From Saccharopolyspora spinosa NRRL 18395 (GTDB lineage Bacteria > Actinomycetota > Actinomycetes > Mycobacteriales > Pseudonocardiaceae), in NCBI RefSeq assembly GCF_000194155.1, contig NZ_GL877878.1, positions 2,792,783-2,856,782 of the forward strand: 64,000 bases of DNA, given 5' to 3'. The notes under the pieces were generated by a model. It had not been told where the DNA came from. It did not search any database and was given only the letters and a program-made list of their open reading frames with translations. Position numbers and translations under genes: made by a program. Each line of letters starts with the position of its first letter. Within the stretch, counting starts at the first letter, position 1. Below are positions 42,381 to 64,000 of the stretch, piece after piece.

Positions 42381-42440
42381 GCAGTTTCAATTGAAACTGA
42401 CAACCCCACCCGCACTTGGGACAGTTTCAGTTGAAACTGC
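42381..42440. repeat. Two copies of the TTTCAATTGAAA palindrome
   Basis: GCAGTTTCAATTGAAACTGA at 42381-42400 and ACAGTTTCAGTTGAAACTGC at 42421-42440 are spaced 40 bases apart between the deaminase-like gene's stop codon and era. Both are near-perfect palindromes related to the exact copies at 60405 and 60487. Confidence 0.8.
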
Positions 42441-42448
42441 GCCGATGG

Positions 42449-44135: not shown

Positions 44136-44146
44136 CGCCGACTCCC

Positions 44147-45861: not shown

Positions 45862-45908
45862 CCGGCAATCAGATTGCCGCCGTCGCCGCCACCTGGTCGA
45901 CACCGGGA

Positions 45909-46663: not shown

Positions 46664-47407
46664 TTAGGCCCAGCGGTCGGTGCGAACGCCGAGGGCTCCG
46701 AGGGCGACCGCGGCGGCTGTCGAGGCACGCAGGACCGTCGGGCCCAGGCGGACGACGTTCGCCCCCGCTTCGGCCAGCGCGGCGAGCTCATCGCTGGTCA
46801 CGCCGCCCTCCGGGCCGACGATCAGGACGAGTTCACCGGTCGCGGGCAGATCCACCGACGACAGCGGCGTGGTCGCCGACTCGTGCAGCACCAGCGCCGC
46901 GTCGGCACCGCGGACCAGCGCCGCGAGCTGCTTGGTGCTCACCGGCTCGTCCACCTGCGGCGTCCACGCCCGCCGCGCCTGCTTCGCCGCCTGCGCGGCC
47001 GTGCTCCGCCACCGCGCCAGCGCCTTCGCGCCGCGCGGGCCGTCGTCCCACTTCGCCACGCACCGGGCGGCGCGCCACGGCACCACCGCGTCCACGCCCG
47101 CCTCGGTCGCCAGCTCCACCGCGAGCTCCCCGCGGTCGCCCTTGACCAGCGCCTGCGCCAGCCGCACCCGCAGTCCGGGCTGCGGGACGTGCCAGGTCTC
47201 GGAAACGGCGAGCTGCAGCGAATCCTTCGCAGCGACCACCACTTCGCAGCGCGCCAAACCACCCTGCCCGTCCGAGAGCAGCAGCTGCTCACCGACGCGC
47301 AGGCGGCGGACGGTGGCCGCGTGCTTGCCCTCCGGGCCGTCCAGGGTGGCCGCGCCGACGGCGGGCAGCCGCTCGACGGAGAACACCGGCAGCGAGGATT
47401 CGGACAC
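46664..47407 (-). CDS. rsmE: 16S rRNA (uracil1498-N3)-methyltransferase
   Basis: The 247-residue protein has the N-terminal PUA-like domain and a C-terminal SPOUT knot with LIVGPEGGVTSDELAALAEAG, then VRLGPTVLRASTAAAVAL, the RsmE signature. It methylates U1498 of 16S rRNA. Start GTG 47407 is likely; another GTG four codons earlier (47419) shares the upstream purines. It lies downstream of dnaJ, as in M. tuberculosis. Confidence 0.9.
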   Translation of the reverse strand: MSESSLPVFSVERLPAVGAATLDGPEGKHAATVRRLRVGEQLLLSDGQGGLARCEVVVAAKDSLQLAVSETWHVPQPGLRVRLAQALVKGDRGELAVELATEAGVDAVVPWRAARCVAKWDDGPRGAKALARWRSTAAQAAKQARRAWTPQVDEPVSTKQLAALVRGADAALVLHESATTPLSSVDLPATGELVLIVGPEGGVTSDELAALAEAGANVVRLGPTVLRASTAAAVALGALGVRTDRWA

Positions 47408-47501
47408 GTCCCGCCTCACCGTTCAGTCTGTTCTTCGCAAGCGGCGGTAGCCGCTCGCGGTGTGGGACTCAACCCAAACCACTTCGAAGCACTCTTCCAG
47501 T

Positions 47502-47843
47502 TCAGCGGTGGCCGAAGGAGCGGAAGCGGGAGAACAGCCCGTGCCGGTTGCCGTTGCCGTTCGCGGTCACAGTCGGCTCCGGTTGCTCCTCGCCGCGCAG
47601 CACGGCGAGCTGGCGCAGCAGGTCGGACTGCGAGTCGTCGAGCCGGGTCGGCACCACGACGTCGAGGTGCACGTGCAGGTCGCCGTGGCCGCTGACCTTG
47701 CCGTTGGACCGCAGCTTGGGCAGGCCCCGACCGGTGAGCACGTGCTCGGTGCCGGGCTGGGTGCCGGGCTCGACCGTCAGCTCCTCCTGGCCGCCGTCGA
47801 GGGTTTCCAGGACGAGCACGGTGCCCAGCGCCGCGGCCGTCAT
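47502..47843 (-). CDS. dnaJ: DnaJ C-terminal fragment, separated by a frame break
   Basis: The frame starts at an ATG overlapping the stop of the main dnaJ ORF (ATGA) and reads [20 protein letters not shown] then [20 protein letters not shown], the second C-terminal substrate-binding domain of DnaJ. It ends [13 protein letters not shown]. In intact DnaJ the residue before this Met is Pro, and the codon here is indeed CCG in the same frame, so the two parts belong to one gene with about 17 codons lost between them. Translation from the ATG may occur but would give only the C-terminal domain. Confidence 0.75.
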
Positions 47844-48634
47844 CGGCGCTCGTGCGGCAGCTCCTCGACCTCGACGAACAGGTCACCGGCCGGTCCCCCG
47901 CCGGGCCCGACCTCGCCTTCGCCGGCCAGCCGCACCCGCATTCCGTCGCCGACACCGGCCGGGATCTTGACGGTGATGGTGCGCCGCGCGCGGACCCGGC
48001 CATCGCCGCCACACTGCTGGCACGGGTCGGTGATGACCTCGCCGAAACCACGGCAGACCGGGCACGGCCGGGACGTCATGACCTGCCCCAGGAACGACCG
48101 CTGCACGGACTGCACCTCGCCGCGACCGCCGCAGGTGTCGCAGGTCGACGGGGCGCTGCCGACGCGGGAGCCGCCGCCGTCGCAGGAGTCGCAGAGCACC
48201 GCGGTGTCGACGGTGATGTCCCGGTTCACGCCGCTGGCGCAGTCCTCCAGCGTCAGCTCCAGCCGGAGCAGCGCGTCCGAGCCCGGCTGGACGCGGCTGC
48301 GCGGGCCCCGCCCGCCGCCACCGGCGGCGCCGCCGCCGAAGAAGGCGTCCATGATGTCGCCCAGACCGCCGAAGCCCGCGAACGGGTCGCCCATGCCACC
48401 GCCGGCGCCGCCGCCGTTGGACAGCGGGTCGCCGCCGAGGTCGACAACCTGCCGCTTCTTCGGGTCGGAGAGCACCTCGTAGGCGGTCGTCACCTCGCGG
48501 AACCGCTCCTGCGCGGCTTCATCGGGGTTGACGTCCGGGTGCAGTTCTCGCGCGAGCTTGCGGTACGCCCGCTTGATCTGCTCGGGTGTCGCTTCCCTGG
48601 CCACCCCGAGGGTCGCGTAGTAGTCCCTGGCCAC
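47840..48634 (-). CDS. dnaJ: DnaJ N-terminal part: J domain, zinc fingers, CTD-I
   Basis: The 264-residue ORF has the J domain (residues 1-65, with HPD at 33-35), the Gly-rich linker, the four CxxCxGxG zinc repeats ([32 protein letters not shown]) and the first substrate-binding domain ending [11 protein letters not shown] then TGA. A normal DnaJ continues F-x-R-x-G-D-D-L-H into the second domain. The break removes this part and shifts the frame. The gene lies 60 bases from hrcA, its normal partner. Confidence 0.8.
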
Positions 48635-48693
48635 CTTTTCCGTACTTCCTCTGCTCGATCAACGAGTACACGCCGGTCGGGCGCGGCGAACCG

Positions 48694-49719
48694 TCACCGA
48701 CCGACCAGGATCTCACCCACGTACGCGGCTACGGCCCGCACTGCTGCCATAGTGCCCGGGTAGTCCATGCGAGTCGGCCCGACTACTCCCAGGCCACCCA
48801 GTACCATGCCATCCGAACCGTATCCGGTGGAAATTACCGAGGTCGTCTGCATCTCTTTGGCCTCGTTCTCCATCCCGATGCTGACCCGCACGGTGCCCGA
48901 ATCGCGAGCCGCCGCGAGCAGCTTGAGCACCACGACCTGCTCTTCGAGCGCCTCCAGGACCTGGCGCAGCGAGTTGGGGAAGTCGGCGACGTTGCGGGTC
49001 AGGTTGGGCGTGCCGCCCAGCAGCATCCGCTCCTCCGGGTGCTCCACCAGCGACTCGATGAGCACGCTGCACACGCGGATCAGCGAGTCGCGCAGCTCCG
49101 GCGGAGCCTGGTCGGGCAGCTCGGCCACCGCGGCGGAGGCGTCGGCGAGCCGCTTCTCGGCCATCGACGCGTTGAGCACGTTGCGCAGCCGGGCCACGTC
49201 GTCGTCGGTGATCACGTCGCCGAGGTCGACCATCCGCTGGTCGACACGCCCGGTGTTGGTGATCAGCACCAGCATCAGGCGCGCCGGGGTGATGGTGACG
49301 ACCTCGACGTGCCGGACGGTCGATCGGGTCAGCGTGGGGTACTGCACCACGGCGACCTGCTGGGTGAGCTGCGCCAGCAGCCGGACGCTGCGGCGCATCA
49401 CGTCGTCCAGGTCCAGCGCCCCTTCGAGGAACTTGTGGATGGCGCGACGCTCGGCCTCGGTCAGCGGCTTGACCTCGTGCAGCCGGTCCACGAACAGCCG
49501 GTAGCCCTTGTCGGTGGGCACCCGGCCCGCGCTGGTGTGCGGCTGGACGATGAAGCCATCCTCCTCCAGGGCGGCCATGTCGTTGCGGACCGTGGCGCTG
49601 GACACCCCGAGGTTGTGGCGGTCGACGAGCGCCTTCGAACCCACCGGTTCCTTGGTCGACACGTAGTCGGCCACGATCGCCCGCAGCACCTCGAATCGGC
49701 GTTCATCCGCATTCACCAC
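48694..49719 (-). CDS. hrcA: Heat-inducible transcription repressor HrcA
   Basis: The 341-residue protein has the N-terminal winged-helix ([18 protein letters not shown] and [18 protein letters not shown]) and the GAF-like dimer domain of HrcA. It represses chaperone genes by binding CIRCE elements. I see no CIRCE site in its own upstream region. Start GTG at 49719 or 49716, behind AAGGAGG. dnaJ follows directly. Confidence 0.94.
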
Positions 49720-49966
49720 CGCCACCTCCTTCACTCCCAACGACACCCGCCCAAACTTTGATGCCCAGGCGCAGCCCGGGTACCACCATCGAGTTTACGG
49801 TGTTCGTGCACCGGAGCCGAGGCGCACGGGCGGGCGGCGGTAGCCTGCCGCGGGGTCGCGGGCCGGTACATCCAGCGGAGCAGATCGGTTCCGTCGGAGG
49901 TAGCCGCAGGCGGACCAACTGCGGCGTCCACCGTGTTCGGCCGTTCGCCAGGAGGTGCCAGCTGCC

Positions 49967-50320
49967 GTGATCTTCAAGGACGTCCGGGAAGGTCAGCCGT
50001 ACCCCGACCACCGGATGGCGCTGCGGGATTGGGCGAACGTTCCGCCGCGCCCGGTGCGGATGGAAGATCTGGTCACCACGACGAAGGTGCTGCACCTGGA
50101 TCGGCTGCTCAGCCGGGACTCGACGTTCTTCGGGGACCTGTTCCCGCATGTGGTCCGCTGGCGCGGCGAGCTCTACCTGGAGGACGGCCTGCACCGGGCC
50201 CTCCGAGCGGCCCTCCACCAGCGCACGGTCCTGCACGCCAGAGTCCTCGACCTGGACGCAGCCCGGCCGGCCGCACCCGGTGGCGGTTCCAACGGGAATC
50301 AACGGCCCGATCCCCGTTGA
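49967..50320 (+). CDS. Conserved actinobacterial protein next to hrcA
   Basis: The 117-residue protein reads VIFKDVREGQPYPDHRMALR then LVTTTKVLHLDRLLSRDSTF and YLEDGLHRALRAALHQRTVL. Similar short proteins occur near hrcA in many actinomycetes and the E-D-G-x-H-R-A-x-R segment recalls ParB/sulfiredoxin-like folds, but the function is unknown to me. GTG 49967 follows GGAGG by 11 bases. It is divergent from hrcA and ends inside a strong hairpin. Confidence 0.7.
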   Translation: MIFKDVREGQPYPDHRMALRDWANVPPRPVRMEDLVTTTKVLHLDRLLSRDSTFFGDLFPHVVRWRGELYLEDGLHRALRAALHQRTVLHARVLDLDAARPAAPGGGSNGNQRPDPR

Positions 50321-50327
50321 AACCGCC
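50282..50327. terminator. Strong stem-loop over the end of the 117-residue gene
   Basis: GGCGGTTCCAACGGG and CCCGTTGAAACCGCC form a 15-bp stem with one mismatch and a 16-base loop. It spans the plus-strand gene's stop codon and ends 12 bases before the convergent hemW stop, so it may serve both transcripts. Confidence 0.6.
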
Positions 50328-50339
50328 CAAATCCGGTTT

Positions 50340-51569
50340 TCAGGAGATCAGGCGCTGAACCACTCCGTCGGCGAGGAGGCGACCGCGGTCCGTCAGGGTG
50401 CAACGACCCGCCGTCAGCGCTTCGGGCACCAGCAGACTGTCGGCGGCTGCTTGCTTCGCCGCCAGAAGGCCCGGCTCGTCCAGCGCGTCCACTGGGAGAC
50501 CCGTGGCCAGGCGGAGCTCGAGCATGATCCGCTCGACCCGCTGGTCCTCGGCGTCGAGGCGCTCCCGCCCCGCCGCCGGCGAGTTGCCCTCCGCCAGCAC
50601 CGCCGCGTAGCGGGCCGGGTGCTTGACGTTCCACCAGCGGACGCCGCCGACGTGGCTGTGCGCGCCCGGGCCGGCGCCCCACCAGTCGCCGCCCTGCCAG
50701 TAGCCGAGGTTGTGGCGGCAGCGCGCCGCGTCGTCCCGCGCCCAGTTCGACACCTCGTACCAGCCCAAACCCGCCTCGCCGAGCGCGCCGTCGATCAGTT
50801 CGTAGCGGTCGGCCAGCACGTCGTCGTCGGGCATCGGGAGTTCGCCTCGGCGGACCTTTCGGGCCATCGCGGTGCCGTCCTCGACGATCAGCGCGTACGC
50901 CGAGACGTGGTCGACCCCGGTGGACAGCACCGCCTCCAGCGAGGCCCGCAGGTCGTCGTCGGTCTCCCCCGGCGTGCCGTAGATCAGGTCCAGGTTGACG
51001 TGGTCGAAGCCGGCCGCACGCGCCTCGCCGACCGCCGCGACCGCGCGGCCCGGCGTGTGCCGCCGCTCCAGCACCCGCAGCACGTGCTCCGCGGCGGACT
51101 GCATGCCGAGCGACACCCGGTTGAACCCGGCCTCGCGGATCCCGGCGAAGAACTCCGGCGACGTCGACTCCGGGTTGGACTCGGTGGTGATTTCCGCCGC
51201 ACCGTCGAGTCCGAACGAGTCGCGGATCGCCGCCAGCACCTCGCCCAGCCGACCTGCGCCGAGCAGCGACGGCGTGCCACCGCCGACGAAGACCGTCGCC
51301 GCCGCCGGCACCGGCCGATCGCCCGCCGCCAGCACCCGCGCGCCCAGCTCCAGCTCCGCCCGAAGGCCGTCCAGCCAGCTTCCGAAACTCGCTGATGAGC
51401 CCAGCTCATCGGCGGTGTAGGTGTTGAAGTCGCAGTAGCCGCAGCGGGTGGCGCAGAACGGCACGTGGACGTACACCCCGAACGGCCGCGCCCCCAGGCC
51501 CGTCAGGGCCTCGGGCGGGAGCGTTCCGTCGGCCGGGGCGGGTTCACCGACAGGCAGTTGAGCAGGCAC
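50340..51569 (-). CDS. hemW: Radical SAM heme chaperone HemW
   Basis: The 409-residue protein has the radical SAM cluster motif CATRCGYCDFNTY (C-x3-C-x2-C, near residues 38-50), the GGGTPS motif near 96, and the C-terminal HemN_C-like domain. The C-x2-C-D/N-F variant with following cysteine pattern matches HemW rather than the oxygen-independent coproporphyrinogen oxidase HemN. It delivers heme to respiratory enzymes. It is divergent from the sulfur operon and convergent with the 117-residue gene. Confidence 0.88.
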   Translation of the reverse strand: MPAQLPVGEPAPADGTLPPEALTGLGARPFGVYVHVPFCATRCGYCDFNTYTADELGSSASFGSWLDGLRAELELGARVLAAGDRPVPAAATVFVGGGTPSLLGAGRLGEVLAAIRDSFGLDGAAEITTESNPESTSPEFFAGIREAGFNRVSLGMQSAAEHVLRVLERRHTPGRAVAAVGEARAAGFDHVNLDLIYGTPGETDDDLRASLEAVLSTGVDHVSAYALIVEDGTAMARKVRRGELPMPDDDVLADRYELIDGALGEAGLGWYEVSNWARDDAARCRHNLGYWQGGDWWGAGPGAHSHVGGVRWWNVKHPARYAAVLAEGNSPAAGRERLDAEDQRVERIMLELRLATGLPVDALDEPGLLAAKQAAADSLLVPEALTAGRCTLTDRGRLLADGVVQRLIS

Positions 51570-51635
51570 TCCACCACTGTCTCACCATGCGGATGGGGAT
51601 GGACCGGTCGGTGAGCACGTGGCACGCTGCCCCAC

Positions 51636-51731
51636 ATGGGTGCGACCTTGCCGAGGCTCTTGCTGGTCACCCGCCGCTACGTGGACCTGCGGCGCGTGTC
51701 CAGCGCGCTGTGCCGCGCCATCATGGGTTGA
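51636..51731 (+). CDS. 31-residue leader peptide of the sulfur operon
   Basis: The ORF reads MGATLPRLLLVTRRYVDLRR then VSSALCRAIMG. The RRYVDLRRVSSALCR core is the type of short leader peptide that actinobacteria place before sulfur assimilation genes; its single Cys codon (51711-51713) lies six codons before the stop. It ends one base before the first of three mutually pairing RNA segments that control access to the sulfite reductase ribosome binding site. It is too short for ordinary gene calls. Confidence 0.7.
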   Translation: MGATLPRLLLVTRRYVDLRRVSSALCRAIMG

Positions 51732-51844
51732 AATCCCGCCGCCGCGTTCTGCTTTGTCCAGTCGGCGCCGGGAGCGCCGAGCAGTGAGAACCGTCACCGT
51801 CGACGGGATTCCACGCGGCGCTGCCGCGCCCGAATCCCGGAGGT
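51732..51844 (+). promoter_or_regulatory. Attenuator-like RNA with two exclusive hairpins
   Basis: Segment 1 AATCCCGCCG (51732-51741) can pair with segment 2 CGACGGGATT (51801-51810; seven pairs, a mismatch, two pairs). Segment 2 can instead pair with segment 3: CGGGATTC (51804-51811) with GAATCCCG (51832-51839), extended by an inner stem CGCGGC/GCCGCG (51814-51819, 51823-51828). Segment 3 runs into the GGAGG ribosome binding site of the sulfite reductase. The two folds exclude each other. Ribosome position on the leader peptide would decide between them. Confidence 0.6.
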
Positions 51845-51849
51845 CGGAC

Positions 51850-53543
51850 ATGGTCCCCCCGACGGAAGCCCCTGCTAGCCCCGCCCGCAAGCGCAAGACG
51901 CGCGGCGAGGGCCAATGGGCGCTCGGTTATCGCGAGCCGCTCAACGCCAACGAGCGCTCGAAGAAGGACGACAACCCGCTGAACGTCCGGCAGCGCATCG
52001 AGACGATCTACGCCCACGGCGGCTTCGACTCGATCGACCCGGCCGACCTGCGTGGTCGTTTCCGCTGGTGGGGCCTCTACACCCAGCGCGCCCCGGGCAT
52101 CCCCGGCGCGCGCACCGGCACGATCGAGCCCGAGGAGCTCGACGACCGCTACTTCATGCTGCGGGTCCGCATCGACGGCGGTGCGCTGACCACCGAGCAG
52201 CTGCGCACCATCGGCGAGGTCTCGCAGACCTACGCGCGCGACACCGCCGACATCACCGACCGGCAGAACATCCAGCTGCACTGGGTGCGGGTCGAGGACA
52301 TGCCGACGATCTGGCAGAAGCTGGAGGGCGTCGGGCTGTCCACCACCGAGGCCTGCGGCGACTGCCCCCGCGTCGTGCTGGGATCGCCGGTCGCGGGCAT
52401 CGCCGCGGACGAGATCATCGACGCCACCCCGGCGATCGAGGAGATCAGCGGTTCATCGGCGACAAGTCGCTGTCCAACCTGCCGCGGAAGTTCAAGAGCG
52501 CGATCAGCGGCTCGCCGCGCTGGGACACCGTGCCGGAGATCAACGACATTTCGCTGGTCGGCGTCGTGCACCCGGAGCACGGGCCCGGCTTCGACCTGTG
52601 GGTCGGCGGCGGCCTGTCCACGAACCCGAAGCTGGCGGTGCGGCTGGGCGCCTGGGTGCCGCTCGGCGAGGTCGCCGAGGTGTGGCAGGCCGTGGTGCAG
52701 ATCTTCCGCGACTACGGCTACCGGCGGCTGCGGCACCGCGCCCGGTTGAAGTTCCTGCTCGCCGACTGGGGCGCGGAGAAGTTCCGGCAGGTGTTGGAGG
52801 ACGAGTACCTGGGCCGCAAGCTGGTGGACGGCCCCGCGCCGGAGACGCCGACCGGTCACCGCGACCATGTCGGGGTGCACCCGCAGGCCGACGGCAAGTT
52901 CTACGTCGGCGCGAAGTCCGCGGCGGGCCGGGTCAGCGGCTCCACGCTGGTGGAGGTCGCGAAGGCCGCCGAGCAGGTCGGATCGCGGCGCGTGCGCACC
53001 ACCGTCGAGCAGAACCTGCTGGTCCTCGACGTGCCGAAATCCGAAGTGGACAGCCTGGTCGCGGACCTCGACGGGCTGGGCCTGCCGGCCGCCCCGTCGC
53101 CGTGGCGGCGCAGCGTGCTGGCCTGCACCGGCATCGAGTTCTGCAAGCTGGCCATCGTGGAGACCAAGGAGCGGGCGATCGCCCTGGTCGACGAGCTCGA
53201 GCAGCGGCTGGCCGACATCCAGGGCGACGTCACCGACCCGGTGACGATCAACCTCAACGGCTGCCCGAATGCCTGCGCCCGCACCCAGGTCGCCGACATC
53301 GGCCTGAAAGGCCAGATGGTGCCGGACGGCGACGGCAACCAGGTCGAGGGCTTCCAGGTGCACCTCGGCGGCGGCCTCGGCGAGGACGCCGGGTTCGGCC
53401 GCAAGATCCGCGGTCACAAGGTCACCTCCGCCGAGCTCGGCGACTACGTGGAGCGGCTGGTCCGCCGCTACCTGGCGCAGCGCTCCACCGGCGAGCGCTT
53501 CGCGCAGTGGGTGGCGCGGGCAGCGGAAGACGACCTCAAGTGA
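51850..53543 (+). CDS. sir: Ferredoxin-dependent sulfite reductase, broken by a frameshift
   Basis: The 5' part (from ATG 51850) reads NIQLHWVRVEDMPTIWQKLE and ATEACGDCPR-type nitrite/sulfite reductase sequence up to AIEEIS; from there the correct sequence is in another frame (RFIGDKSLSNLPRKFKSAIS and on). One base, most simply a C near 52449, is missing. The 3' part carries the siroheme/[4Fe-4S] cysteines CTGIEFC and NGCPNAC. Repaired, the protein would be about 564 residues, typical for NirA/SirA. It reduces sulfite to sulfide. It heads the operon with cysH, cysD and cysN. Confidence 0.88.
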
Positions 53544-53719
53544 GCCGAGCGGCGCCGTTCTACTGCCCGTACTGCGGGGACGAGGACCTCACGCCCGAGG
53601 CCGAGCCGGCCGGGGCGTGGCAGTGCGCGTCGTGCCTGCGGGTCTTCACCGTGCGGCTCGTCGGACTGTCCCTCGGCGAGCAGGCCGAAGACCCGGCCGG
53701 AGGAAACGGAGAAGCATGA
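53540..53719 (+). CDS. Small zinc-ribbon protein between sir and cysH
   Basis: The 59-residue protein has two CxxC pairs, FYCPYCGDED and QCASCLRVF, forming a zinc ribbon or rubredoxin-like knuckle. Its start GTG overlaps the sulfite reductase stop (GTGA) and its stop overlaps the cysH start (ATGA), so it is tightly coupled to both. Small proteins of this kind are commonly found at this spot in actinobacterial sulfur operons. An accessory or electron-transfer role is inference. Confidence 0.75.
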   Translation: MSRAAPFYCPYCGDEDLTPEAEPAGAWQCASCLRVFTVRLVGLSLGEQAEDPAGGNGEA

Positions 53720-54441
53720 CTGCCGACACCACCACGAACATCGGCGCCCGGCGCAGCGACGACGAACTGCGGGCGCTGGTCGAGGAGGCCGCGCCGCGGC
53801 TGGCCGAGGCCGACGCGGAGGAAGCCCTGCGCTGGGCCGCCGACAACTTCGGCGACAGCCTGATCGTCGCGTCGAACATGCAGGACGCGGTGCTGGTCGA
53901 CCTGGCGGCCAAGGCCAAGCCGGGCGTAGACATCCTGTTCCTGGAAACCGGCTACCACTTCGCCGAGACCATCGGCACCCGCGACGCCGTCGCGCAGGTC
54001 CACGACGTGAACCTCGTCAACGCGATCCCCGCGCAGACCGTCGCCGAGCAGGACGCCAGCGAGGGCCCGCGGCTGTTCGAGCGGGACCCGAACCGCTGCT
54101 GCTTCCTGCGCAAGGTGGTGCCGCTGCGCAACACACTGGCCCGCTACGAGGCGTGGGTGACCGGGGTTCGCCGGGTGGAGGCCCCGACGCGCGCGAACAC
54201 GCCGATCGTGACCTGGGACGACCGCAACGCCCTGGTCAAGATCAACCCGCTGGCGGCCTGGTCCGACGACGACATGCAGCGCTACATCGACGAGCACGGC
54301 GTGCTGGTCAACCCGCTGGTGTCGGCCGGTTACCCGTCGATCGGGTGCCAGCCCTGCACCGCCAAGCCCGCGCCCGGTGCCGACCCGCGCAGCGGGCGCT
54401 GGGCGGGCAGCGCCAAGACCGAGTGCGGATTGCACGGCTGA
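53716..54441 (+). CDS. cysH: Phosphoadenylyl/adenylyl-sulfate reductase
   Basis: The 241-residue protein has the PAPS-reductase fold with DSLIVASNMQDAVLVDLAAK near residue 50 and the cysteines of a [4Fe-4S] cluster: NRCCFLRK, GCQPCTAK, and the C-terminal catalytic KTECGLH. The extra CC and CxxC pairs mark the APS-specific (assimilatory) reductase. It reduces APS to sulfite using thioredoxin. The ATG at 53716 lies within the end of the zinc-ribbon gene. Confidence 0.94.
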   Translation: MTADTTTNIGARRSDDELRALVEEAAPRLAEADAEEALRWAADNFGDSLIVASNMQDAVLVDLAAKAKPGVDILFLETGYHFAETIGTRDAVAQVHDVNLVNAIPAQTVAEQDASEGPRLFERDPNRCCFLRKVVPLRNTLARYEAWVTGVRRVEAPTRANTPIVTWDDRNALVKINPLAAWSDDDMQRYIDEHGVLVNPLVSAGYPSIGCQPCTAKPAPGADPRSGRWAGSAKTECGLHG

Positions 54442-54458
54442 GGAACTCCGGAGGAGAC

Positions 54459-55394
54459 ATGACGACAGTCGAGTTGCCGACCGATCGGACCGATGTGCCG
54501 CCGCAGGTGGACAACCTGGACGCGCTGGAGTCCGAAGCGATCCACATCTTCCGCGAGGTGGCCGGGGAGTTCGACCGGCCGGTGATCCTGTTCTCCGGCG
54601 GCAAGGACTCCACGGTGCTGGTGCACCTGGCGCTGAAGGCGTTCTGGCCCGCGCCGGTGCCGTTCCCACTGCTGCACGTCGACACCGGGCACAACTTCCC
54701 GGAGGTGCTGGCCTTCCGCGACGAGCTGGTGGAGCGGCACGACCTGCGGTTGGTGGTGGCGTCCGTGCAGGACTACATCGACGACGGCCGGCTGCAGGAG
54801 CGGGCCGACGGCACCCGCAACCCACTGCAGACCACGCCGCTGCTGGACGGGATCAGCGAGAACCGGTTCGACGCGGTCTTCGGCGGCGGTCGGCGCGACG
54901 AGGAGCGGGCCCGCGCCAAGGAACGCATCTTCAGCCTGCGCAACGCCTTCGGGCAGTGGGATCCGCGCCGCCAGCGCCCCGAGCTGTGGAACCTGTACAA
55001 CGGCAAGCACCGGCCGGGCGAGCACGTCCGGGTGTTCCCGCTGTCGAACTGGACCGAGCTGGACATCTGGCGCTACATCCAGCGGGAGAAGATCGAGCTG
55101 CCGGAGATCTACTACGCGCACCGGCGCGAGGTGTTCCTGCGCGACGGCATGTGGTTGACCTCGGGTCCGTGGGGCGGGCCCCGCGACGGGGAGGTCGCGG
55201 CCACCAGGACCGTGCGCTACCGCACCGTCGGCGACGGTTCCTGCACCGGTGCGGTGGAATCCGAGGCGTACACAGTGGACGACGTGATCGCCGAGGTCGC
55301 CGCCAGCCGGCTCACCGAGCGCGGCGCGACGCGAGCCGACGACCGCATTTCCGAAGCAGCAATGGAAGACCGCAAGCGCGAGGGCTACTTCTGA
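54459..55394 (+). CDS. cysD: Sulfate adenylyltransferase subunit 2
   Basis: The 311-residue protein has the ATP-pyrophosphatase PP-loop VILFSGGKDSTVLVHLALK near residue 48 and the CysD segments HVDTGHNFPEVLAFRDELVE and FGGGRRDEERARAKERIFS. With CysN it makes APS from ATP and sulfate. The ATG at 54459 follows GGAGGAGAC, 17 bases behind cysH. Confidence 0.95.
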   Translation: MTTVELPTDRTDVPPQVDNLDALESEAIHIFREVAGEFDRPVILFSGGKDSTVLVHLALKAFWPAPVPFPLLHVDTGHNFPEVLAFRDELVERHDLRLVVASVQDYIDDGRLQERADGTRNPLQTTPLLDGISENRFDAVFGGGRRDEERARAKERIFSLRNAFGQWDPRRQRPELWNLYNGKHRPGEHVRVFPLSNWTELDIWRYIQREKIELPEIYYAHRREVFLRDGMWLTSGPWGGPRDGEVAATRTVRYRTVGDGSCTGAVESEAYTVDDVIAEVAASRLTERGATRADDRISEAAMEDRKREGYF

Positions 55395-55423
55395 AAAACG
55401 GTTTTCCACCCTCGTTTCGAGTA

Positions 55424-55535
55424 GCGGTGCCGGCAGCGGAACCTCAGACGCCCCCTCGGTCCGGGATCGCCGACCCGTGTATGTCCTACACGGCGCCGGC
55501 GCTGTCCTCCCGGGAGACGTCTGAGGACCCGCAAG
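55424..55535. repeat. Dispersed intergenic repeat, copy 2, with hairpin ends
   Basis: GCGGAACCTCAGACG (55436-55450) and CGTCTGAGGACCCGC (55518-55532) form matching arms around about 67 bases that include CCGGGATCGCCGACCCGTG. It is similar to 34308-34420 and more weakly to 46305-46375. Here it separates cysD from cysN by 245 bases, an unusual gap inside this operon. Confidence 0.6.
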
Positions 55536-55639
55536 CGTTGCAAGTGGCCCAGGCGGGCCAAGTGGCTTCACCACTACAAGAACACGACGGAACTTCAGAG
55601 ACAAGGCACACAGCCGAACCACCAGGAATGGGTTCATCA

Positions 55640-56983
55640 ATGACCGAGACGACCACTCGCACCGCGCCGGACAGCGGTACCGAGGTGACTCTGCCGGTGC
55701 ACAGCGATCTGCTGCGGTTGGCCACCGCCGGTTCCGTCGACGACGGCAAGAGCACCCTGGTCGGGCGGCTGCTGCACGACACCAAGTCGGTGCTGGCCGA
55801 CCAGCTCGACGCGGTGCACCGCGCCAGCGCGGACCGCGGCCTCGCCACCCCGGACCTGTCGCTGCTGGTCGACGGCCTGCGCGCGGAGCGCGAACAGGGC
55901 ATCACCATCGACGTGGCCTACCGCTACTTCGCCACGCCCAAGCGCACTTTCGTGCTCGCCGACACCCCCGGTCACGTGCAGTACACCCGGAACACCGTCA
56001 CCGGTGCGTCGACCGCGCAGCTGGCGGTTCTGCTGGTGGACGCGCGCAAGGGCGTCATCGAGCAGACCCGGCGGCATGCGGCGGTGCTGGCGCTGCTGGG
56101 CGTGCCGCAGCTGGTGCTGGCCGTCAACAAGATCGACATGGTCGGCTTCGACGAGGCGGTATTCACCCGCATCGCCGCCGAGTTCACCGAGCACGCCCGG
56201 GCCCTGGGCTACCGGGACGACACCGTGGTGACCATCCCGGTGTCCGCGCTGCTCGGCGACAACGTGGTGGAACGCTCCGCGAACACCCCCTGGTACAGCG
56301 GTCCTTCGCTGCTGGAGCACCTGGAAAGCGTGCCGGTGGCACCGGACCCGCACGACGCGCCGTTCCGGATGCCGGTGCAGTACGTGATCCGGCCGCGCAC
56401 CGCCGAATACCCGGACTACCGCGGCTACGCGGGCCAGGTGGCGGCCGGTGTCGTCGCCGAGGGCGACGAGGTGGTCGTGCTGCCCGCCGGGCTGCGCACC
56501 CGGGTGTCCAAGGTGGACAGCCCGGACGGGGCGAGGCCGCGCGCCGCGGCCGGGCACTCCGTCACCCTGCTGCTGGCCGACGACGTGGACATCTCGCGCG
56601 GCGATCTGATCGCCGCCGCGGACGCCCCGCCGCGGGTCACCGACGAGCTCGACGCCACGGTCTGCTGGCTGGCCGAGAAGCCGCTGAACCCGGGCGCCAA
56701 GGTGCTGGTCAAGCACGGCACCCGCACCGTGCAGGCCATCGTCACCGAGCTGTCGGCCCGCTTCGACGAGCAGCAGCTGTCGAGTGTGGACGGTCCGGAT
56801 TCGTTGCAGCTCAACGAGATCGGCCGGGTGCGGCTGCGCACGGCGGAGCCGCTGCCGATCGACGATTACGCCGCGAGCCGGCGCACCGGATCGTTCCTGG
56901 TGATCGACCCCGCCGACGGCACCACGCTGGCCGCCGGACTGATCGGGGTGCCGTTGGCGCCGCTGGCCGCCGCGTCAGAATGA
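55640..56983 (+). CDS. cysN: Sulfate adenylyltransferase subunit 1 (GTPase)
   Basis: The 447-residue protein is an EF-Tu-like GTPase: G1 AGSVDDGKSTLVGRLLHDTK near residue 34, DTPGHVQYTRNTVTGAS, and NKIDMVGFDE. Two beta-barrel domains follow. There is no C-terminal APS kinase (CysC) domain, so this strain uses APS directly, consistent with the Fe-S type of CysH. Start ATG 55640, with an in-frame ATG at 55628. The gap to cysD holds a dispersed repeat. Confidence 0.95.
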   Translation: MTETTTRTAPDSGTEVTLPVHSDLLRLATAGSVDDGKSTLVGRLLHDTKSVLADQLDAVHRASADRGLATPDLSLLVDGLRAEREQGITIDVAYRYFATPKRTFVLADTPGHVQYTRNTVTGASTAQLAVLLVDARKGVIEQTRRHAAVLALLGVPQLVLAVNKIDMVGFDEAVFTRIAAEFTEHARALGYRDDTVVTIPVSALLGDNVVERSANTPWYSGPSLLEHLESVPVAPDPHDAPFRMPVQYVIRPRTAEYPDYRGYAGQVAAGVVAEGDEVVVLPAGLRTRVSKVDSPDGARPRAAAGHSVTLLLADDVDISRGDLIAAADAPPRVTDELDATVCWLAEKPLNPGAKVLVKHGTRTVQAIVTELSARFDEQQLSSVDGPDSLQLNEIGRVRLRTAEPLPIDDYAASRRTGSFLVIDPADGTTLAAGLIGVPLAPLAAASE

Positions 56984-56990
56984 GCAGGAG

Positions 56991-57734
56991 ATGACCGCGC
57001 CACTGGTGGCTGTCGCGCACGGCAGCCGGGATCCGCGTTCGGCCGCGACCATCCACGCCCTGATGGACGTGGTCCGCGCGATGCGCCCGGATCTCGACGT
57101 ACGAGTGGCGTTCCTGGACCTGTCGGCACCGCGCGTGGGCGACGTGCTCAGCGCGGTGCACGGCGACGGCCACGACTCGGCGGTCGTCGTGCCGCTGCTA
57201 CTCGGCCGGGCCTTCCACGCCCGCGTCGACGTGCCCGCGGCGGTGGCCGACGCGGAGCGGCGCTATCCGCGGTTCCGGGTGCACGTGGCCGACGTGCTGG
57301 GCCCGGATCCGCGACTGGACGAGGCGGCGTGGCGGCGGCTTGCCGAGGCCGGAGCGTCCGCCAACGACCCGGAACTGGGCGTGCTGCTGGCCGGCGCGGG
57401 ATCGTCGCACGCACCGGCAAACCGCCTAGTCGCCGACGTCGCGGCGCGCTGGCAGTCGCGCACGTCGTGGGCCGGCGCCGTCGCGACCTTCGCGGCAGCC
57501 GCCGAACCCGATGTTCCGGCGGCGATCGAGGCCCTGCGCGCACGCGGTGCCCGCCGCATCGCGGTCGCCTCCTGGTTCCTGGCCCCGGGCCTGCTCCCGG
57601 ACCGGATCATCGAGCTGGCCCGCAAGCACGCGACAAACCCGCTGCTAGCGGCCCCGATGGCCGACGACGAGGGCGTGGCCGACCACCGCTACGCCGAAGC
57701 CCAAGCATCCCCGGACCTGTCCGTCGCCCTCTGA
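56991..57734 (+). CDS. Sirohydrochlorin ferrochelatase-like protein (CbiX/SirB)
   Basis: The 247-residue protein begins PLVAVAHGSRDPRSAATIHA and contains AVVVPLLLGRAFHARVDVPA, the two chelatase motifs with metal-binding His, repeated in a degenerate second half (LGVLLAGAGSSHAPANRLVA). It should insert iron into sirohydrochlorin to make siroheme for the sulfite reductase. It lies seven bases behind cysN, in the position of M. tuberculosis Rv2393. Length fits a fused two-lobe CbiX. Confidence 0.88.
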   Translation: MTAPLVAVAHGSRDPRSAATIHALMDVVRAMRPDLDVRVAFLDLSAPRVGDVLSAVHGDGHDSAVVVPLLLGRAFHARVDVPAAVADAERRYPRFRVHVADVLGPDPRLDEAAWRRLAEAGASANDPELGVLLAGAGSSHAPANRLVADVAARWQSRTSWAGAVATFAAAAEPDVPAAIEALRARGARRIAVASWFLAPGLLPDRIIELARKHATNPLLAAPMADDEGVADHRYAEAQASPDLSVAL

Positions 57735-58457: not shown

Positions 58458-61400
58458 ATGAACACGCAGCAGCCGAATCGACCGGTCATCACGCCAACCA
58501 TGCGGGAACAGGCCCAGAAGCAGCCGAACACCTGGCTGTACGTGGTCGACCCGATCTTCACCGATCCGAACGCCGAGGTGCCGCCGTGGGGCTTCATCGG
58601 CGGCTACCGGGTGGACGAGCAGGGCGAGATCACCGACGACTTCTCGCCGAACCCGAACTACCGGCCGTCCCCGGTGGCGCTGCGGCTGCCCGCGCCGACC
58701 AACGACGTCGAACGCGCCCTGCAGCTCACCACCACCGGCTACGCGCAGGGGCATTCCCTGCTGACCGCGATGCTCGACGCCGAGCTGATCCTGTTCGCGC
58801 AGCCACAGGGCAGCGGGCTGTTCACGATGGAGCACGAGTCGGGCCGTCGGCAGCTGCAGGTGTTCACCTCGGAGACCTTCCTGCCGCCCAACTGGACGAC
58901 CTGGCAGCGGATGACCGGTCGGCAGCTTTCGACGCACAACCTCACCGGCATCGACGTGCAGGTCAACCCGACCAGCCCGGTCAAGGCCCGGCTCCCCGCC
59001 GAGGACCTGGCCAAGGCCGCGGCCGCGGTGCCACCGAAGGCACCTGCCGTGCCGATCAACTCCCCCGCGAACGGAATGCCGGTGCAGGCCCCACCGGGAG
59101 CCGCGCCGCAGCCGGGCGAGCAGGCCCCGAAGCCGACGGGCGGGCCGACCGCGCAGCCGCCGGGCGATCCCCTGGAAACCGAGTTCGGCCGCCGGTTCCT
59201 CGGCTCGATGCTGGCCGGGGCGATCGGCGACGCGCTCGGCGCGCCGGTGAAGTTCTACCCGGTGGACCAGATCCGCAGCCGCTTCGGCGCGATGGGCGTC
59301 ACGGAGTACGACCGCGCCGGTGAGCACCCGGGCGAGTTCACCGACGACACCCAGCTGGTGCTGTTCACCCTGGAAGGCCTGATCCGCGGGCACTTCGCGG
59401 CCCGCACCGCCGGGGCCGACAGCCCGCTGTCCGCGATCCAGTTGGCCTACCAGCGCTGGCTGCACACCCAGGGCTACGCGTGGATGCGGGCCGCCGGGCC
59501 GTTCACGATGAGCCACCCCAAGCCCGACGGCTGGCTGATCGAGCAGCGCGACCTGTTCGCCGTGCGCTCGCCGAACAGCAGCTGCATCACCGCGCTGCGC
59601 GAGTTCGCCGCGGTGGGCGCGCCCGGCACGTTCGAGCAGCCGATCAACGATTCGCAGGACTGCGGCGGCGTGGTCCGGGCGGCACCGGTGGCCCTGTGGT
59701 CCGACGAGCCGGAGCAGGTCTTCGAACTCGCCGCCGCAACCGCGGCCCTGACCTACTCGCAGCCCAACGGCTATCTGCCCGCCGGCGTGCTGGCCGTGGT
59801 GGTGCACCGGTTGCTGCGCGAGGAGACGCTCGAAGACGCGGTGCGGCAGGCCCGCGAACTGCTCGTGCAGTACCAGGGTCACGAAGACACCGAGCGCGCG
59901 TTGCAGGCCGCCGAGGAGCTCGCCAATCAGGGCAAGCCGAGCCCCGAGCAGCTCAAGGACACGTTGGGCGGCGGCTGGGCAGGGCACGAGGCGCTGGCCA
60001 TCGCGGTGTGCGCGGCGCTTAGCACCGACAACATCGCGGCCGCGCTGATGGTGTCCGTCAACCACTCCGGCGATAGCGACTCGACCGCGGCCATCTGCGG
60101 GAACATCGTCGGCGCCCGCTACGGCGCGCCCGCGCTGCCGGGCGTGTGGCTGCGCGACCTCAAGCAGCGCGAGATCGTCGAGACGCTGGCGACGGACGCG
60201 CTGCTGGAGTTCGGCGCGACTCCGCCGAGCGATGACGCGTGGACCTCGCGCTACCCGGCCGCGAAGGACATCTCCGAGCTGGTGTTCACCTCCACCCTGC
60301 CGCTGACGGACGCGGGGCCAGTCGCGAAGCCCTCGAAGGCGCCGCCGGTCGCCGACGACGCGCTCGCCGAAGCGGTCGAGCCCGAAGCCGAGCCAAACGC
60401 TCACGCAGTTTCAATTGAAACTGCGGACCAGCAGGAGGCGGAGGTTCCGGCGGAGGACACCGCGCCCCCCGAGCCCGAAGTCCCTGCAGTTTCAATTGAA
60501 ACTGCAGGCCAGTCGCACGCGGCAGTCGAGGCAGTCGACGAACCTGCCGAACCCGCCACTGACCCGGCGGCGCTTCGGCCGAACCGCATCCTGGGTTTCC
60601 TGCTCGGCGGCGCCGCTGGTGACGCGCTCGGCCACCCCATCGAGGACGACTCGCTGCAGAACATCCGCCGCAAGTACGGCGAGGCGGGGCTGACCGACTA
60701 CGTCGACGCGCACCGGCCCGGCGGGTCGATCAGCGACGAGACCCAGATGACGCTGTTCACCCTGGAAGGCCTCATCCGGGCCAGCGTCCGCCGTCGGCTC
60801 TTCGGCGAGAACGAGCCCACCACCCAGGTTCAGCACGCCTACCAGCGCTGGCTGCACACCCAGGGCTTCGACTGGCGGGAGGCCGGCGGGCCACGGGCCG
60901 CGACCGCACCGGACGGCTGGCTGATCAGGCAGAGGGGCCTGTTCGTCCGCCGCGCGCCCGCCACGACCACCATCCAGGCGCTGCACGGCTACGCCAACGG
61001 CAACAAGCAGGGCTCGTTCACCAACCGCCTCAACGACTCGAAGGGCTGTGGCGGGGTGATGCGGGCCGCCCCGGCCGGGTTGTGGTCCGCCGACTCCGCC
61101 GAGGTGTTCCAGGTCGGCGCGATGACCGCGGTACTGACCCACGGCCACCCCAGCGGCTACCTGCCCGCCGGGGCGCTCGCCGTGATCGTCCAGCAGCTGC
61201 TGGTGGGCCGGTCGTTGCCGGAGGCGGTGGACCGCGCGCTCACCGAGCTGTCCACATGGGACGGACACGACGAGACGAGCGCCGCAGTGCGCCGGGCCAT
61301 CGAGCTGGCCACCGCGGGCACCCCGACACCGGAGCAGATCCACGAGTTCCTCGGCGAGGGCTGGTTCGGCGAGCAGGCCCTGGCGATCGCGGTGTGCGCG

Positions 61401-63260
61401 GCGCTGACCCATCCGGAGTCGTTCGCCGACGCGGTGGTCCTGGCCGCCAACCACTCCGGCGACAGCGACTCGACCGCGGCGATCTGCGGGAACATCATGG
61501 GCGCGGCGCTCACTGCGGACGCGATCCCGCAGACCTGGCGCGACAAGCTGGAGCTGCGCGAGGTCATCGAGGGGCTGGCCGGCGACGCGATCCGCGAGTT
61601 CGGCCCGAACCCGCCGTCGGACGCGGAGTGGCTGGAGCGCTACCCGATCGGCGAGGCCGAGCCCGCCGTGCCACCACAAAAGGACGTCCTCGCGCCAGCG
61701 GCCGAAGTGCCCGAATGGACTCGGTACGCAGCAGGAACACCGGAATCGGAGACCGCGCAGCCCGGCGAGAGACAGGTCGAGGACGACCCGGTGCCGGAAA
61801 CCCCGGGCCAGGAAGCGCCCGCTCCGGAAGCCGCAGCGGCGGAAGTTCCGGTCGCCGATGCTCCCGCCGCCGAGACGCCCGCTGCGGAACCTCCAGCTCC
61901 CGAAGCCCCGGTTGCCGAGGCGGCAGTCGTCGAGGCTCCGGCTACGGAAACCGCCGTCGCGGAGGCGCCAGCCGAGGCAGGCGACGTAGCCGACGAAGGC
62001 CTGTCGGACGAGGAACTGCAGCTGCTCAGCGTGTGGCGCAAGTTCCGCGACAACGGCGAAGGGAACTCCGCCGACCTGACGCAGGGCCTGCAGAAGCTGC
62101 TCGTCGAGGCCTTCGGCGCCGAACGCGCGGCCCAGCTGATCGGCGAGGCCGCCGCCGAGCCGGAAGCCGGAGCCGGGCTCGCCGCCGAAACCCGGGTGCA
62201 GCTCAGCCGCCGCGAGCGGCTCGAAGGCTGCGTGCTGGGCGCCGCCGCTGGCGACGCCCTCGGCGCGCCTTGGATGTTCGCCGACCTGCGCACGGTCCTG
62301 GGCGCGAACCCGGGAGGCGTGCGGGAACTCTCCGAGGCCTTCGCCCGCCGCGGCGCGGCCACCGCCTACTCGCAGCAGGCGGCGTTCGTGCTCTACGGCC
62401 TGATCGGCGGGAAAATCCGCTCAACGCTGCGCGGCATCCCGGCGTTCCGGCCGGGCTTGGTCCGCACCGCGCTCCAGCAATGGCTGCTCACGCAGGGCGC
62501 CCGGGTCGACGTGCCGGCCGGGACGCTCGCCGAGAACGAAACGCTTCGCGCGCAGCGGTTCCCGGACGATGCGTCGCTGATCTCATTGGCGCAGTGCAAC
62601 GACCGCCGGGAGCCCCCGACGCCGGGCAACCCGCCGAACGCCGCCCGCACGCCCGCGGCAACGGTCCGCGGTGCGGTGGTCGGCTTCGAAGTCCGCACCG
62701 TGCAGGACTCGATCTCCCTCGGTATCGAGATCGCCGCGGTCACCCACGGGCATCCGGACGGTTACCTGCCGGCCGGGGCGCTGTCCGGGCTGGTGTCCGC
62801 GTTGCAGGAGGGCCACACCCTCGCCGAAGCGGTGCATGCCGTGCTGGCCGAGCTGGACCAGATGGAGGGTGCTGGGACCACTGCGCAGGGCTTGCGCTCC
62901 GCGATCGAGATCGCCGCGAACGGCCCGGTGTCGCCAACCAGACTGGAAACCCTGGGCCTCGGCTGGCAAGCGCCGGAAGCCCTGGCGATCGCCGTCGCGG
63001 CTGCGCTGGCACACCCGAACTCGTTCGCCGAAGCCGTGTCGCTGGCGGCTACCCACGCCGGTAACAGCGCGGCGACCGCGTCCATCTGCGGCAGCCTGCT
63101 GGGCACCGCCCGCGGCGCCGGGACGATCCCCGCCGAGTGGGCCACCGGCCTGGAGCTGCGCCCGGTCCTGGACCAGCTGCTGGAAGACGCGCACCGGGCA
63201 GGCACGGAGATCGACACCCACGAGCCAGTGCCCGGCTGGGCGCAGCGCTACCCCGGTTAA
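58458..63260 (+). CDS. SseB-like domain with three ADP-ribosylglycohydrolase-like domains
   Basis: The 1600-residue protein starts at ATG 58458 (MNTQQPNRPVITPTMREQAQ); an ATG at 58431 is possible. Residues 10-185 form an SseB-like domain. ADP-ribosylglycohydrolase-like domain 1 (about 237-597) has GAIGDALG, FTDDTQL and NHSGDSDSTAAICGN, all metal-binding Asp present. Domain 2 (about 711-1061) has GAAGDALG, ISDETQM and NHSGDSDSTAAICGN. Domain 3 (about 1250-1594) has AAAGDALG, but AYSQQAAF and THAGNSAATASICG, so it has lost most metal ligands. Two Pro/Ala/Glu-rich linkers separate the domains; the first contains two in-frame palindromes. Domains 1 and 2 are probably active, and domain 3 is not. 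Substrate unknown. Confidence 0.85.
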   Translation: MNTQQPNRPVITPTMREQAQKQPNTWLYVVDPIFTDPNAEVPPWGFIGGYRVDEQGEITDDFSPNPNYRPSPVALRLPAPTNDVERALQLTTTGYAQGHSLLTAMLDAELILFAQPQGSGLFTMEHESGRRQLQVFTSETFLPPNWTTWQRMTGRQLSTHNLTGIDVQVNPTSPVKARLPAEDLAKAAAAVPPKAPAVPINSPANGMPVQAPPGAAPQPGEQAPKPTGGPTAQPPGDPLETEFGRRFLGSMLAGAIGDALGAPVKFYPVDQIRSRFGAMGVTEYDRAGEHPGEFTDDTQLVLFTLEGLIRGHFAARTAGADSPLSAIQLAYQRWLHTQGYAWMRAAGPFTMSHPKPDGWLIEQRDLFAVRSPNSSCITALREFAAVGAPGTFEQPINDSQDCGGVVRAAPVALWSDEPEQVFELAAATAALTYSQPNGYLPAGVLAVVVHRLLREETLEDAVRQARELLVQYQGHEDTERALQAAEELANQGKPSPEQLKDTLGGGWAGHEALAIAVCAALSTDNIAAALMVSVNHSGDSDSTAAICGNIVGARYGAPALPGVWLRDLKQREIVETLATDALLEFGATPPSDDAWTSRYPAAKDISELVFTSTLPLTDAGPVAKPSKAPPVADDALAEAVEPEAEPNAHAVSIETADQQEAEVPAEDTAPPEPEVPAVSIETAGQSHAAVEAVDEPAEPATDPAALRPNRILGFLLGGAAGDALGHPIEDDSLQNIRRKYGEAGLTDYVDAHRPGGSISDETQMTLFTLEGLIRASVRRRLFGENEPTTQVQHAYQRWLHTQGFDWREAGGPRAATAPDGWLIRQRGLFVRRAPATTTIQALHGYANGNKQGSFTNRLNDSKGCGGVMRAAPAGLWSADSAEVFQVGAMTAVLTHGHPSGYLPAGALAVIVQQLLVGRSLPEAVDRALTELSTWDGHDETSAAVRRAIELATAGTPTPEQIHEFLGEGWFGEQALAIAVCAALTHPESFADAVVLAANHSGDSDSTAAICGNIMGAALTADAIPQTWRDKLELREVIEGLAGDAIREFGPNPPSDAEWLERYPIGEAEPAVPPQKDVLAPAAEVPEWTRYAAGTPESETAQPGERQVEDDPVPETPGQEAPAPEAAAAEVPVADAPAAETPAAEPPAPEAPVAEAAVVEAPATETAVAEAPAEAGDVADEGLSDEELQLLSVWRKFRDNGEGNSADLTQGLQKLLVEAFGAERAAQLIGEAAAEPEAGAGLAAETRVQLSRRERLEGCVLGAAAGDALGAPWMFADLRTVLGANPGGVRELSEAFARRGAATAYSQQAAFVLYGLIGGKIRSTLRGIPAFRPGLVRTALQQWLLTQGARVDVPAGTLAENETLRAQRFPDDASLISLAQCNDRREPPTPGNPPNAARTPAATVRGAVVGFEVRTVQDSISLGIEIAAVTHGHPDGYLPAGALSGLVSALQEGHTLAEAVHAVLAELDQMEGAGTTAQGLRSAIEIAANGPVSPTRLETLGLGWQAPEALAIAVAAALAHPNSFAEAVSLAATHAGNSAATASICGSLLGTARGAGTIPAEWATGLELRPVLDQLLEDAHRAGTEIDTHEPVPGWAQRYPG
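60405..60424. repeat. Perfect 20-bp palindrome inside the coding region
   Basis: GCAGTTTCAATTGAAACTGC is its own reverse complement. It is read in frame as AVSIETA within the linker between glycohydrolase-like domains 1 and 2. It is the same sequence, less one or two bases, as the palindromes at 42381 and 42421. Confidence 0.9.
60483..60508. repeat. Second palindrome in the same linker, extended to 26 bp
   Basis: The core is identical to the copy at 60405, and the symmetry continues three bases on each side. It again encodes VSIETA. The two copies lie 82 bases apart, in the same low-complexity linker. Confidence 0.9.
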
Positions 63261-63266
63261 TCCACA

Positions 63267-64000
63267 GTGGACGAATTCTGGTTGGACGAGACGGAACGGG
63301 CGCTGCTAGCGGCCTGGCGCGAAACGCACGCGCCCAGCCGCCGCGACCCGGTGGAGCAGCAGCTGCTGAACACCTGGCGGCGGTGGCAGCGGAAACCCGC
63401 CACCCGCCCGCTGTGGGCGACGGCCCTGCAACACCGGCTCAGCGCGGAACCCCCGCCGGCACCTGCCACCGGCCTGGCCGGTCGCAACGGCCCGCTGCCC
63501 GAAGCACCGGGACGGTTGCTCGGCATGCTGCTCGGCGGAGCGGTGGGCGAATTCGTCGCGCTCGGCCGGGTCGGGCAGCGCACCACCGCCGTGCTCTTCG
63601 TCCTGGAGGGCCTGATCCGCGCGCACACCCAAGCGCGGTCGGCGGGCGATGGAGATCCGGTCGGCTTCGCCCTCGGCGGACTCCAGCGCTGGCTGCACAC
63701 CCGCGGCGTGCCTTGGCGAGACTGCGGGGCTGACACCGCCCAGCCCAACGGCTGGCTGGTGACGGAACCCGCGCTGCACTCCGCCGACAGCGACGAACCG
63801 ACGATGCTCACCGCGCTCGCCCGGGTCGCCGCCGGGCACGCCGCCGGTTCCCGGCGGCAGCCCATCAACACCTCGGACACGGCCACCGCCGTGCCGCTCG
63901 GCGCACTCGCCGCGCTGTGGTCGGGCGACCCCGGCACGGTTTTCGCGCTCGGCGGCGACCTCGCCGCGCTCACCCACGGCCACCCGAACGGCCACAGCCC
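63267..64000 (+). CDS. ADP-ribosylglycohydrolase-like protein, 5' part
   Basis: A GTG-started frame six bases behind the 1600-residue gene remains open to the window end (at least 244 codons). It begins MDEFWLDETERALLAAWRET and then has a single glycohydrolase-like domain: GRLLGMLLGGAVGEFVALGR, VLFVLEGLIRAHT, GGLQRWLHTRGVPW, QPNGWLV and ALTHGHPNGH. The GDALG and TDDTQ motifs are replaced (GEFVALG; QRTTAVL), so it lacks the first metal-binding aspartates. It is probably a non-catalytic relative coupled to the upstream gene. The 3' end is outside the window. Confidence 0.8.
   Translation, partial: MDEFWLDETERALLAAWRETHAPSRRDPVEQQLLNTWRRWQRKPATRPLWATALQHRLSAEPPPAPATGLAGRNGPLPEAPGRLLGMLLGGAVGEFVALGRVGQRTTAVLFVLEGLIRAHTQARSAGDGDPVGFALGGLQRWLHTRGVPWRDCGADTAQPNGWLVTEPALHSADSDEPTMLTALARVAAGHAAGSRRQPINTSDTATAVPLGALAALWSGDPGTVFALGGDLAALTHGHPNGHS

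Follow-up and report, generated by a model that had tools for sequence, protein, structure and literature searches.

ADP-Ribosylglycohydrolase Domains with Intact and Lost Metal Motifs in a Conserved Two-Gene Array of Saccharopolyspora spinosa, a Candidate Orphan Polyimmunity Locus

Two adjacent genes of Saccharopolyspora spinosa, termed A and B, lie at the end of the 64,000-nucleotide stretch of DNA analyzed here (the window) and encode five ADP-ribosylglycohydrolase (ARH) domains, of which two carry the metal-binding motifs of active enzymes. With moderate confidence, the pair is read as an orphan, chromosomally fixed polyimmunity array directed against ADP-ribosyltransferase (ART) toxins of the type VII-delivered kind that act between actinomycetes. 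This analysis established by computation how the domains are arranged, the state of their motifs, their conservation and constraint, the vertical inheritance of the pair, and how its paralogues are linked to ART-type effectors. The immunity role is assigned by analogy with the paralogous locus, because none of the toxin and type VII secretion system (T7SS) queries used is matched in the flanks of the array in 27 relatives and the ART types searched gave no match in the host genome. Reversal of ADP-ribosylation, a role offered by the original prediction, appears likely from the sequences.

Architecture of the Array

Gene A (58458..63260, + strand) encodes a protein of ~1600 amino acids in which an N-terminal domain is followed by the ARH domains D1, D2, and D3, with long low-complexity linkers between them. 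Its start, read from the sequence, is the ATG at 58458, and a second in-frame candidate is the TTG upstream at 58419; gene calls are longest frames with codon-position GC, and their start positions are uncertain. No signal peptide or membrane segment was noticed in gene A by eye. The Pfam profile PF03747 (cut-off 26.2 bits) matches gene A in three stretches (E 6.7e-175, 581 bits), and gene A and these three domains lie where the original prediction had placed them. Gene B (63267..64000, + strand) runs past the window to ~65633 in window coordinates. Completed outside the window, it encodes 788 amino acids and matches PF03747 in two stretches (282 bits), D4 and D5, where at least one further ARH unit had been expected. 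A and B probably form one operon, as only 6 bases separate them.

The N-terminal domain of gene A (58530..59015, + strand) matches NCBIfam NF033532 (lone7para_assoc, “type VII secretion system-associated protein”) with 139.4 bits (E 1e-40, cut-off 85), and the database name of the gene A orthologues is likewise “type VII secretion system-associated protein”. The C-terminal half of the domain matches PF07179 (SseB) with 24.5 bits (cut-off 21) when the N-terminal segment is searched alone; PF07179 is absent from the hits of the whole protein at E ≤ 1 and matches 33 of 43 members of this N-terminal domain family at the same threshold. The earlier SseB label is thus borne out, and NF033532 is the closer one. 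The median dN/dS of the domain is 0.076.

The name NF033532 alone is weak evidence for type VII secretion. Five large proteins encoded next to other NF033532 genes were compared with profiles: three gave no match, one matched NF033532 weakly, and one resembled EccA at a score under the cut-off (254 of 467 bits). The neighbors of many single-copy NF033532 genes, and of the third copy in the host, look unrelated to secretion by eye. A 2263-residue protein beside an NF033532 gene (L142:7467-14255, − strand) has an N-terminus that weakly matches NF033532 itself (E 0.006).

An ARH domain was counted as catalytic (live) when it carried the Asp-rich metal motifs xD[DE][TS] and GDxD in alignment register. 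Both are present in D1 (59187..60215, + strand; TDDTQ at 59340-59354, HSGDSDST at 60063-60086) and in D2 of the host (60579..61604, + strand; SDETQ at 60732-60746, HSGDSDST at 61452-61475), as originally quoted. D2 also aligns to ARH1 across the conserved cores. The motifs are lost in D3 (62211..63191, + strand), D4 (63564..64000, + strand, clipped by the window end), and D5 (~64572-65522, + strand, beyond the window). The motif strings first given for D3 and D4 required correction: in register, D3 reads TAYSQ (62361-62375) and HAGNSAAT (63054-63077), and D4 reads GQRTT (63573-63587) and HSGDAATA. D5 reads GSDTQ and HSGNSATT. Against the DraG equivalog TIGR02662, gene A scores 124 bits, below the cut-off of 337.

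The Paralogous Locus and Its Effectors

Elsewhere in the host genome, four ARH domains and an NF033532 domain form a second cluster beside EspC, YbaB, and WXG-type genes. Paralogous arrays combining NF033532 with live and dead ARH domains were found in stretches from 29 genomes. Where both sides are covered, rpoC lies on one side and rpsL or rpsG on the other (e.g., G012, G025, G052, G062, and G070). In 20 of the 29 loci the ARH genes come after a type VII-type effector of 800 residues or more, and the C-terminus of this effector is ART-type in 17 of these 20. The assignment rests on the Scabin-like profile PF22596 in three effectors, on PF03496 or PF01129 above the Pfam cut-off in five, on PF03496 below the cut-off in eight, and on BLAST only in G078. 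Three of the eight are matched at E 0.014-0.029, and these three are 54-66% identical to other ART-type members by BLAST. GNAT-like C-termini occur in three loci including that of the host, where the Pfam match is below the cut-off; the other two calls rest on BLAST to the host effector. A contig end truncates the effectors of G061 and G079, and two overlapping frames make up that of G052.

The 14 aligned non-Scabin ART-type effectors share one invariant Arg, Ser, and Glu. This is as expected for the R-S-E clade of ARTs, with which the Imm-ARG family strictly associates according to the excerpted text of PMC3482391. Effector C-terminus similarity does not follow that of fusA (rho −0.05, 78 pairs). 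Outside the 29 loci, the array of G006 contains PF03496 and two TNT domains. The host carries a type VII-type locus (G000:C6 ~42140-54203; L013, L014) with a 1479-residue, partly masked effector that has a GNAT-like C-terminus. Open frames of up to 14,299 residues with one or more Scabin-like ART domains occur at G076:C1:2129103-2137706 and in other genomes of the genus; they probably encode giant toxins of several domains.

The paralogous locus contains 57 live and 49 dead full-length ARH domains and 34 partial ones; the split ARH gene of the G070 array is counted as fragments. The first gene downstream of the effector tracks the toxin type, with a similarity of 0.426 within and 0.171 between toxin clusters (permutation p 2e-4), the clusters having been drawn by the analyst from effector C-termini before the tests. 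Neither the last ARH gene (0.382 vs 0.378, p 0.43) nor species relatedness (0.566 vs 0.569, p 0.52) does so. The signal sits in the clusters only, since rank Mantel tests are not significant for toxin versus first gene (rho 0.03, p 0.36) or versus first ARH gene (0.19, p 0.06). All three GNAT loci have a first ARH gene that is wholly dead, as do seven ART loci (G012, G061, G062, G063, G064, G073, and G077) and one locus of Scabin type (G079). In G025, G052, G065, G066, G068, and G078 the first gene ends in a live ARH, and the effector is directly followed by a small non-ARH gene in G067, G069, and G070. A dead ARH with the motif YTxxRSVV follows the effector in 3/3 GNAT-type loci, that of the host included, and in 0/17 others.

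With an effector present, the last ARH domain is live in 20/20 loci; without one, in 5/9 (Fisher p 0.005, uncorrected for kinship). The integrity of D1 and D2 in the window array shows no significant association with the presence of an effector at the paralogous locus (14/20 vs 4/9, p 0.24), a point against the immunity reading. On these patterns it may be proposed, tentatively, that the ARH fold serves as a general non-catalytic immunity scaffold. Dead ARHs would be toxin-specific inhibitors, apparently even of a GNAT-like toxin, and live ARHs would give toxin-independent enzymatic protection; genes A and B would be a permanent composite of both, an SseB-linked scaffold that carries three pseudo-ARH domains besides two live ones.

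Surroundings and Proposed Mechanism

Beside the window array, the host EspC, YbaB, and WXG queries are unmatched in all 27 relatives (flanks of up to 10 kb per side), as are the N- and C-terminal queries from the effectors of G060, G066, and G077; two G068 queries, which derive from an ARH protein instead of an effector, are excluded. The same EspC, YbaB, and WXG and effector queries do match the paralogous locus (EspC in 19/29). By these queries, an adjacent R-S-E ART toxin, by which an Imm-ADP-RGHD locus is recognized, was seen in 0/27 flanks. The layout is that of a polyimmunity locus, with five ARH domains in two adjacent genes and the searched toxin queries unmatched in the flanks. The neighborhood search that had been suggested for an ADP-ribosyltransferase or secretion system thus succeeded at the paralogous locus, with the transferases in relatives, and with the queries used it matched neither beside the window array.

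In the host genome, no ART was matched by PF03496 (for which the control was silent), PF22596, or an ART alignment (A4). The latter matches in 15/22 genomes of the genus, 13 of which had contributed a row to it. PADLOC gave no anti-phage defense match for gene A, gene B, or two proteins of the paralogous locus. Just upstream of the array, genes for sulfate assimilation occupy window positions 53617-57734 together with a gene resembling sirohydrochlorin ferrochelatase (all labeled by eye). Two genes of this sulfate-assimilation region recur in 26/27 relatives, and no link between them and ADP-ribosylation was seen.

It is hypothesized that the array acts through soluble cytoplasmic protein, which would encounter either an R-S-E-type ART entering the cell or the target which that ART has modified. 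D1 and D2, with their intact ARH1/DraG-type residues, would hydrolyze ADP-ribosyl-arginine and reset the target whichever ART had modified it. D3, D4, and D5, as ARH folds without metal ligands, may bind the toxin, the modified target, or ADP-ribose rather than cleave; the model for this is the toxin-linked dead ARH folds of the paralogous locus, which appear to bind. Most speculatively, the SseB-type domain might be an interaction module for type VII substrates. The pair would then hold enzymatic and binding modes and would lack a toxin, as polyimmunity operons usually do. Protection would target the toxins of others, since no ART of the searched types was matched in the host genome.

Conservation across Genomes

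Gene A is present without an internal stop in 22/22 genomes of its genus, and the array is therefore far beyond chance. Its identity tracks that of fusA (rho 0.75; 190 pairs, 20 genomes); judging from these comparisons, the gene pair is vertically inherited. The domains of gene B follow gene A in 27/29 genomes, and the first in-frame start of gene B lies ≤10 bases from the end of gene A or overlaps it in 26 of these 27 (224 bases in the other). Seven neighbor genes are syntenic in 23-27 of 27 relatives.

It is unusual for immunity cassettes to be fixed throughout a genus, which counts against immunity and fits a housekeeping function. The pair could be a regulator in which D1 and D2 reverse endogenous regulatory ADP-ribosylation in a DraG-like manner, while D3-D5 are allosteric or scaffolding subunits of one complex. 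Universal presence, conserved synteny, vertical inheritance, strong constraint, and a host genome without matches to the ART types searched all agree with this account, although it is considered rather unlikely. The families searched yielded no candidate endogenous ART in the host genome, and the NF033532-ARH paralogues sit in ART-type toxin loci. Moreover, catalytic residues are lost without loss of the gene: D2 is lost or absent in some relatives, its catalytic residues are gone in 9 of the 27 genomes that have it, D1 has lost them in 2/29, and G013 retains the gene although both domains found there are dead. In G066, gene A is entirely without D2, and a 1213-residue protein of S. pogona (P0014) has the same layout.

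The “progressive loss” of active sites first proposed is only partly borne out: loss is visible in D2, intact in 18/27, and rarely in D1, intact in 27/29. D3 (0/29 intact), D4 (0/27), and D5 (0/27) are motif-less in every genome examined.

Origin and Constraint of the Domains without Metal Motifs

D1, D2, D3, D4, and D5 each form one clade (SH-aLRT 97-100) in a tree of 110 rows, and the long branches are mostly D4. The tree does not include L006 and L007, two ARHs that stand alone in the host. Changes between the live and dead states number at least nine on this tree and six on a thinned tree of 71 rows. Topology was tested on these 71 rows, from which five long-branch rows had been removed beforehand. 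One clade of all dead ARHs, i.e., a single loss of activity, is rejected (p-AU 6e-7). A single clade of D1, D2, and D3 is also rejected (p-AU 0.003), and with it a simple in-gene tandem duplication. D3+D4+D5 (p-AU 0.21) and D3+D5 (0.29) are compatible with the data as clades; since the former is not rejected, one loss may possibly have occurred at the base of all three. In G001 and G047, a related locus has two NF033532 domains and an ARH, paired with a two-ARH protein; in the two-ARH Streptoalloteichus proteins of this related locus (P0177, P0178), both motifs are intact.

Median dN/dS is 0.22-0.27 in the dead domains, 0.18 in D1 and D2, and 0.31-0.53 in the linkers, from pairs that are not independent of one another. 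The structural model of D3 has a pLDDT of 93, and D3 is predicted to keep a complete ARH fold. Its orthologues keep a THGxPDG segment, the counterpart of which in the live D2 is THGHPSG. Given this constraint on the dead domains and the full ARH fold predicted for D3, D3-D5 are, on this evidence, not decaying copies. An array in which some ARH units have become non-catalytic modules, as first proposed, agrees with these observations.

The same dead domains might instead bind ADP-ribose, NAD-derived ligands, or ADP-ribosylated targets as a sponge or sensor, regulating D1 and D2, or the T7SS via the SseB-type domain. The predicted fold of D3 and its retained THGxPDG segment would suit such a role, and ARH-fold chains are matched in PDB entries for mitoribosome assembly and the FtsHi motor. 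Known ARHs hold ADP-ribose in part through their metal-binding residues. D3-D5 have lost these residues and D4 matches the PF03747 profile only from about column 50, both of which argue against this account, which is considered improbable. That D3-D5 are non-functional remnants of duplication, as lost motifs and the long D4 branches could suggest, is very hard to reconcile with their well-supported clades, the stop-free gene A of 22 genomes, dN/dS values below those of the linkers, and the confident D3 model.

Relation to Known Systems

The original prediction knew of no described system with such a layout, a claim that is not supported. The orthologues are already named in databases, and the excerpted text of PMC3482391 describes both ARH immunity proteins (Imm-ADP-RGHD, Imm-ARG) and polyimmunity operons that are usually free of toxin genes. 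The preferred polyimmunity reading places genes A and B among known kinds; what looks new is the fixed orphan locus and the use, as immunity modules, of ARH folds that are dead. In those excerpts, Imm-ADP-RGHD is catalytically active and strictly tied to R-S-E ARTs. The present array resembles it in having PF03747 domains with intact residues and paralogous loci that pair such domains with R-S-E-type ART effectors near type VII-type genes. It differs in its genus-wide fixation, its SseB/NF033532 fusion, its three dead ARH domains, and flanks in which no adjacent toxin was detected. With the polyimmunity loci of the same excerpts it shares several immunity-type domains per polypeptide and a small toxin-free operon; the loci described there mostly use SUKH, SuFu, and other domains, whereas the window array is all-ARH, mixes live and dead domains, and is vertically conserved.

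Searches of open-licence papers on ARHs in the context of type VII secretion, polyimmunity, immunity proteins, pseudoenzymes, and Saccharopolyspora returned no title or abstract that describes the array, nor any bacterial ARH pseudoenzyme. If the polyimmunity reading is true, the array shows how evolution can turn an enzymatic antidote into a mixture of enzyme and binding domains, and it adds bacterial examples to the ARH pseudoenzymes. It would also give a testable account of a protein whose only database name is “type VII secretion system-associated”, together with ready toxin-immunity pairs of varied ART types and ARH partners.

Tri1, an ARH hydrolase immunity protein, both reverses the modification and occludes the toxin active site, according to excerpts of PMC10763514 and PMC12483513, and is thus a precedent for dividing two functions between live and dead domains. 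However, it serves a T6SS toxin, and gene A scores 104 bits against the Tri1 equivalog NF041672, below the curated cut-off of 490. ADPRHL1, a non-catalytic vertebrate ARH, lost catalysis and kept function, which also lends some support to the sponge or sensor account; in the excerpts available it is a heart protein, and they show no link to toxins. In PDB entry 8za7, an ART-ARH effector-immunity pair of Listeria monocytogenes, a single ARH chain of 332 residues is found with the toxin.
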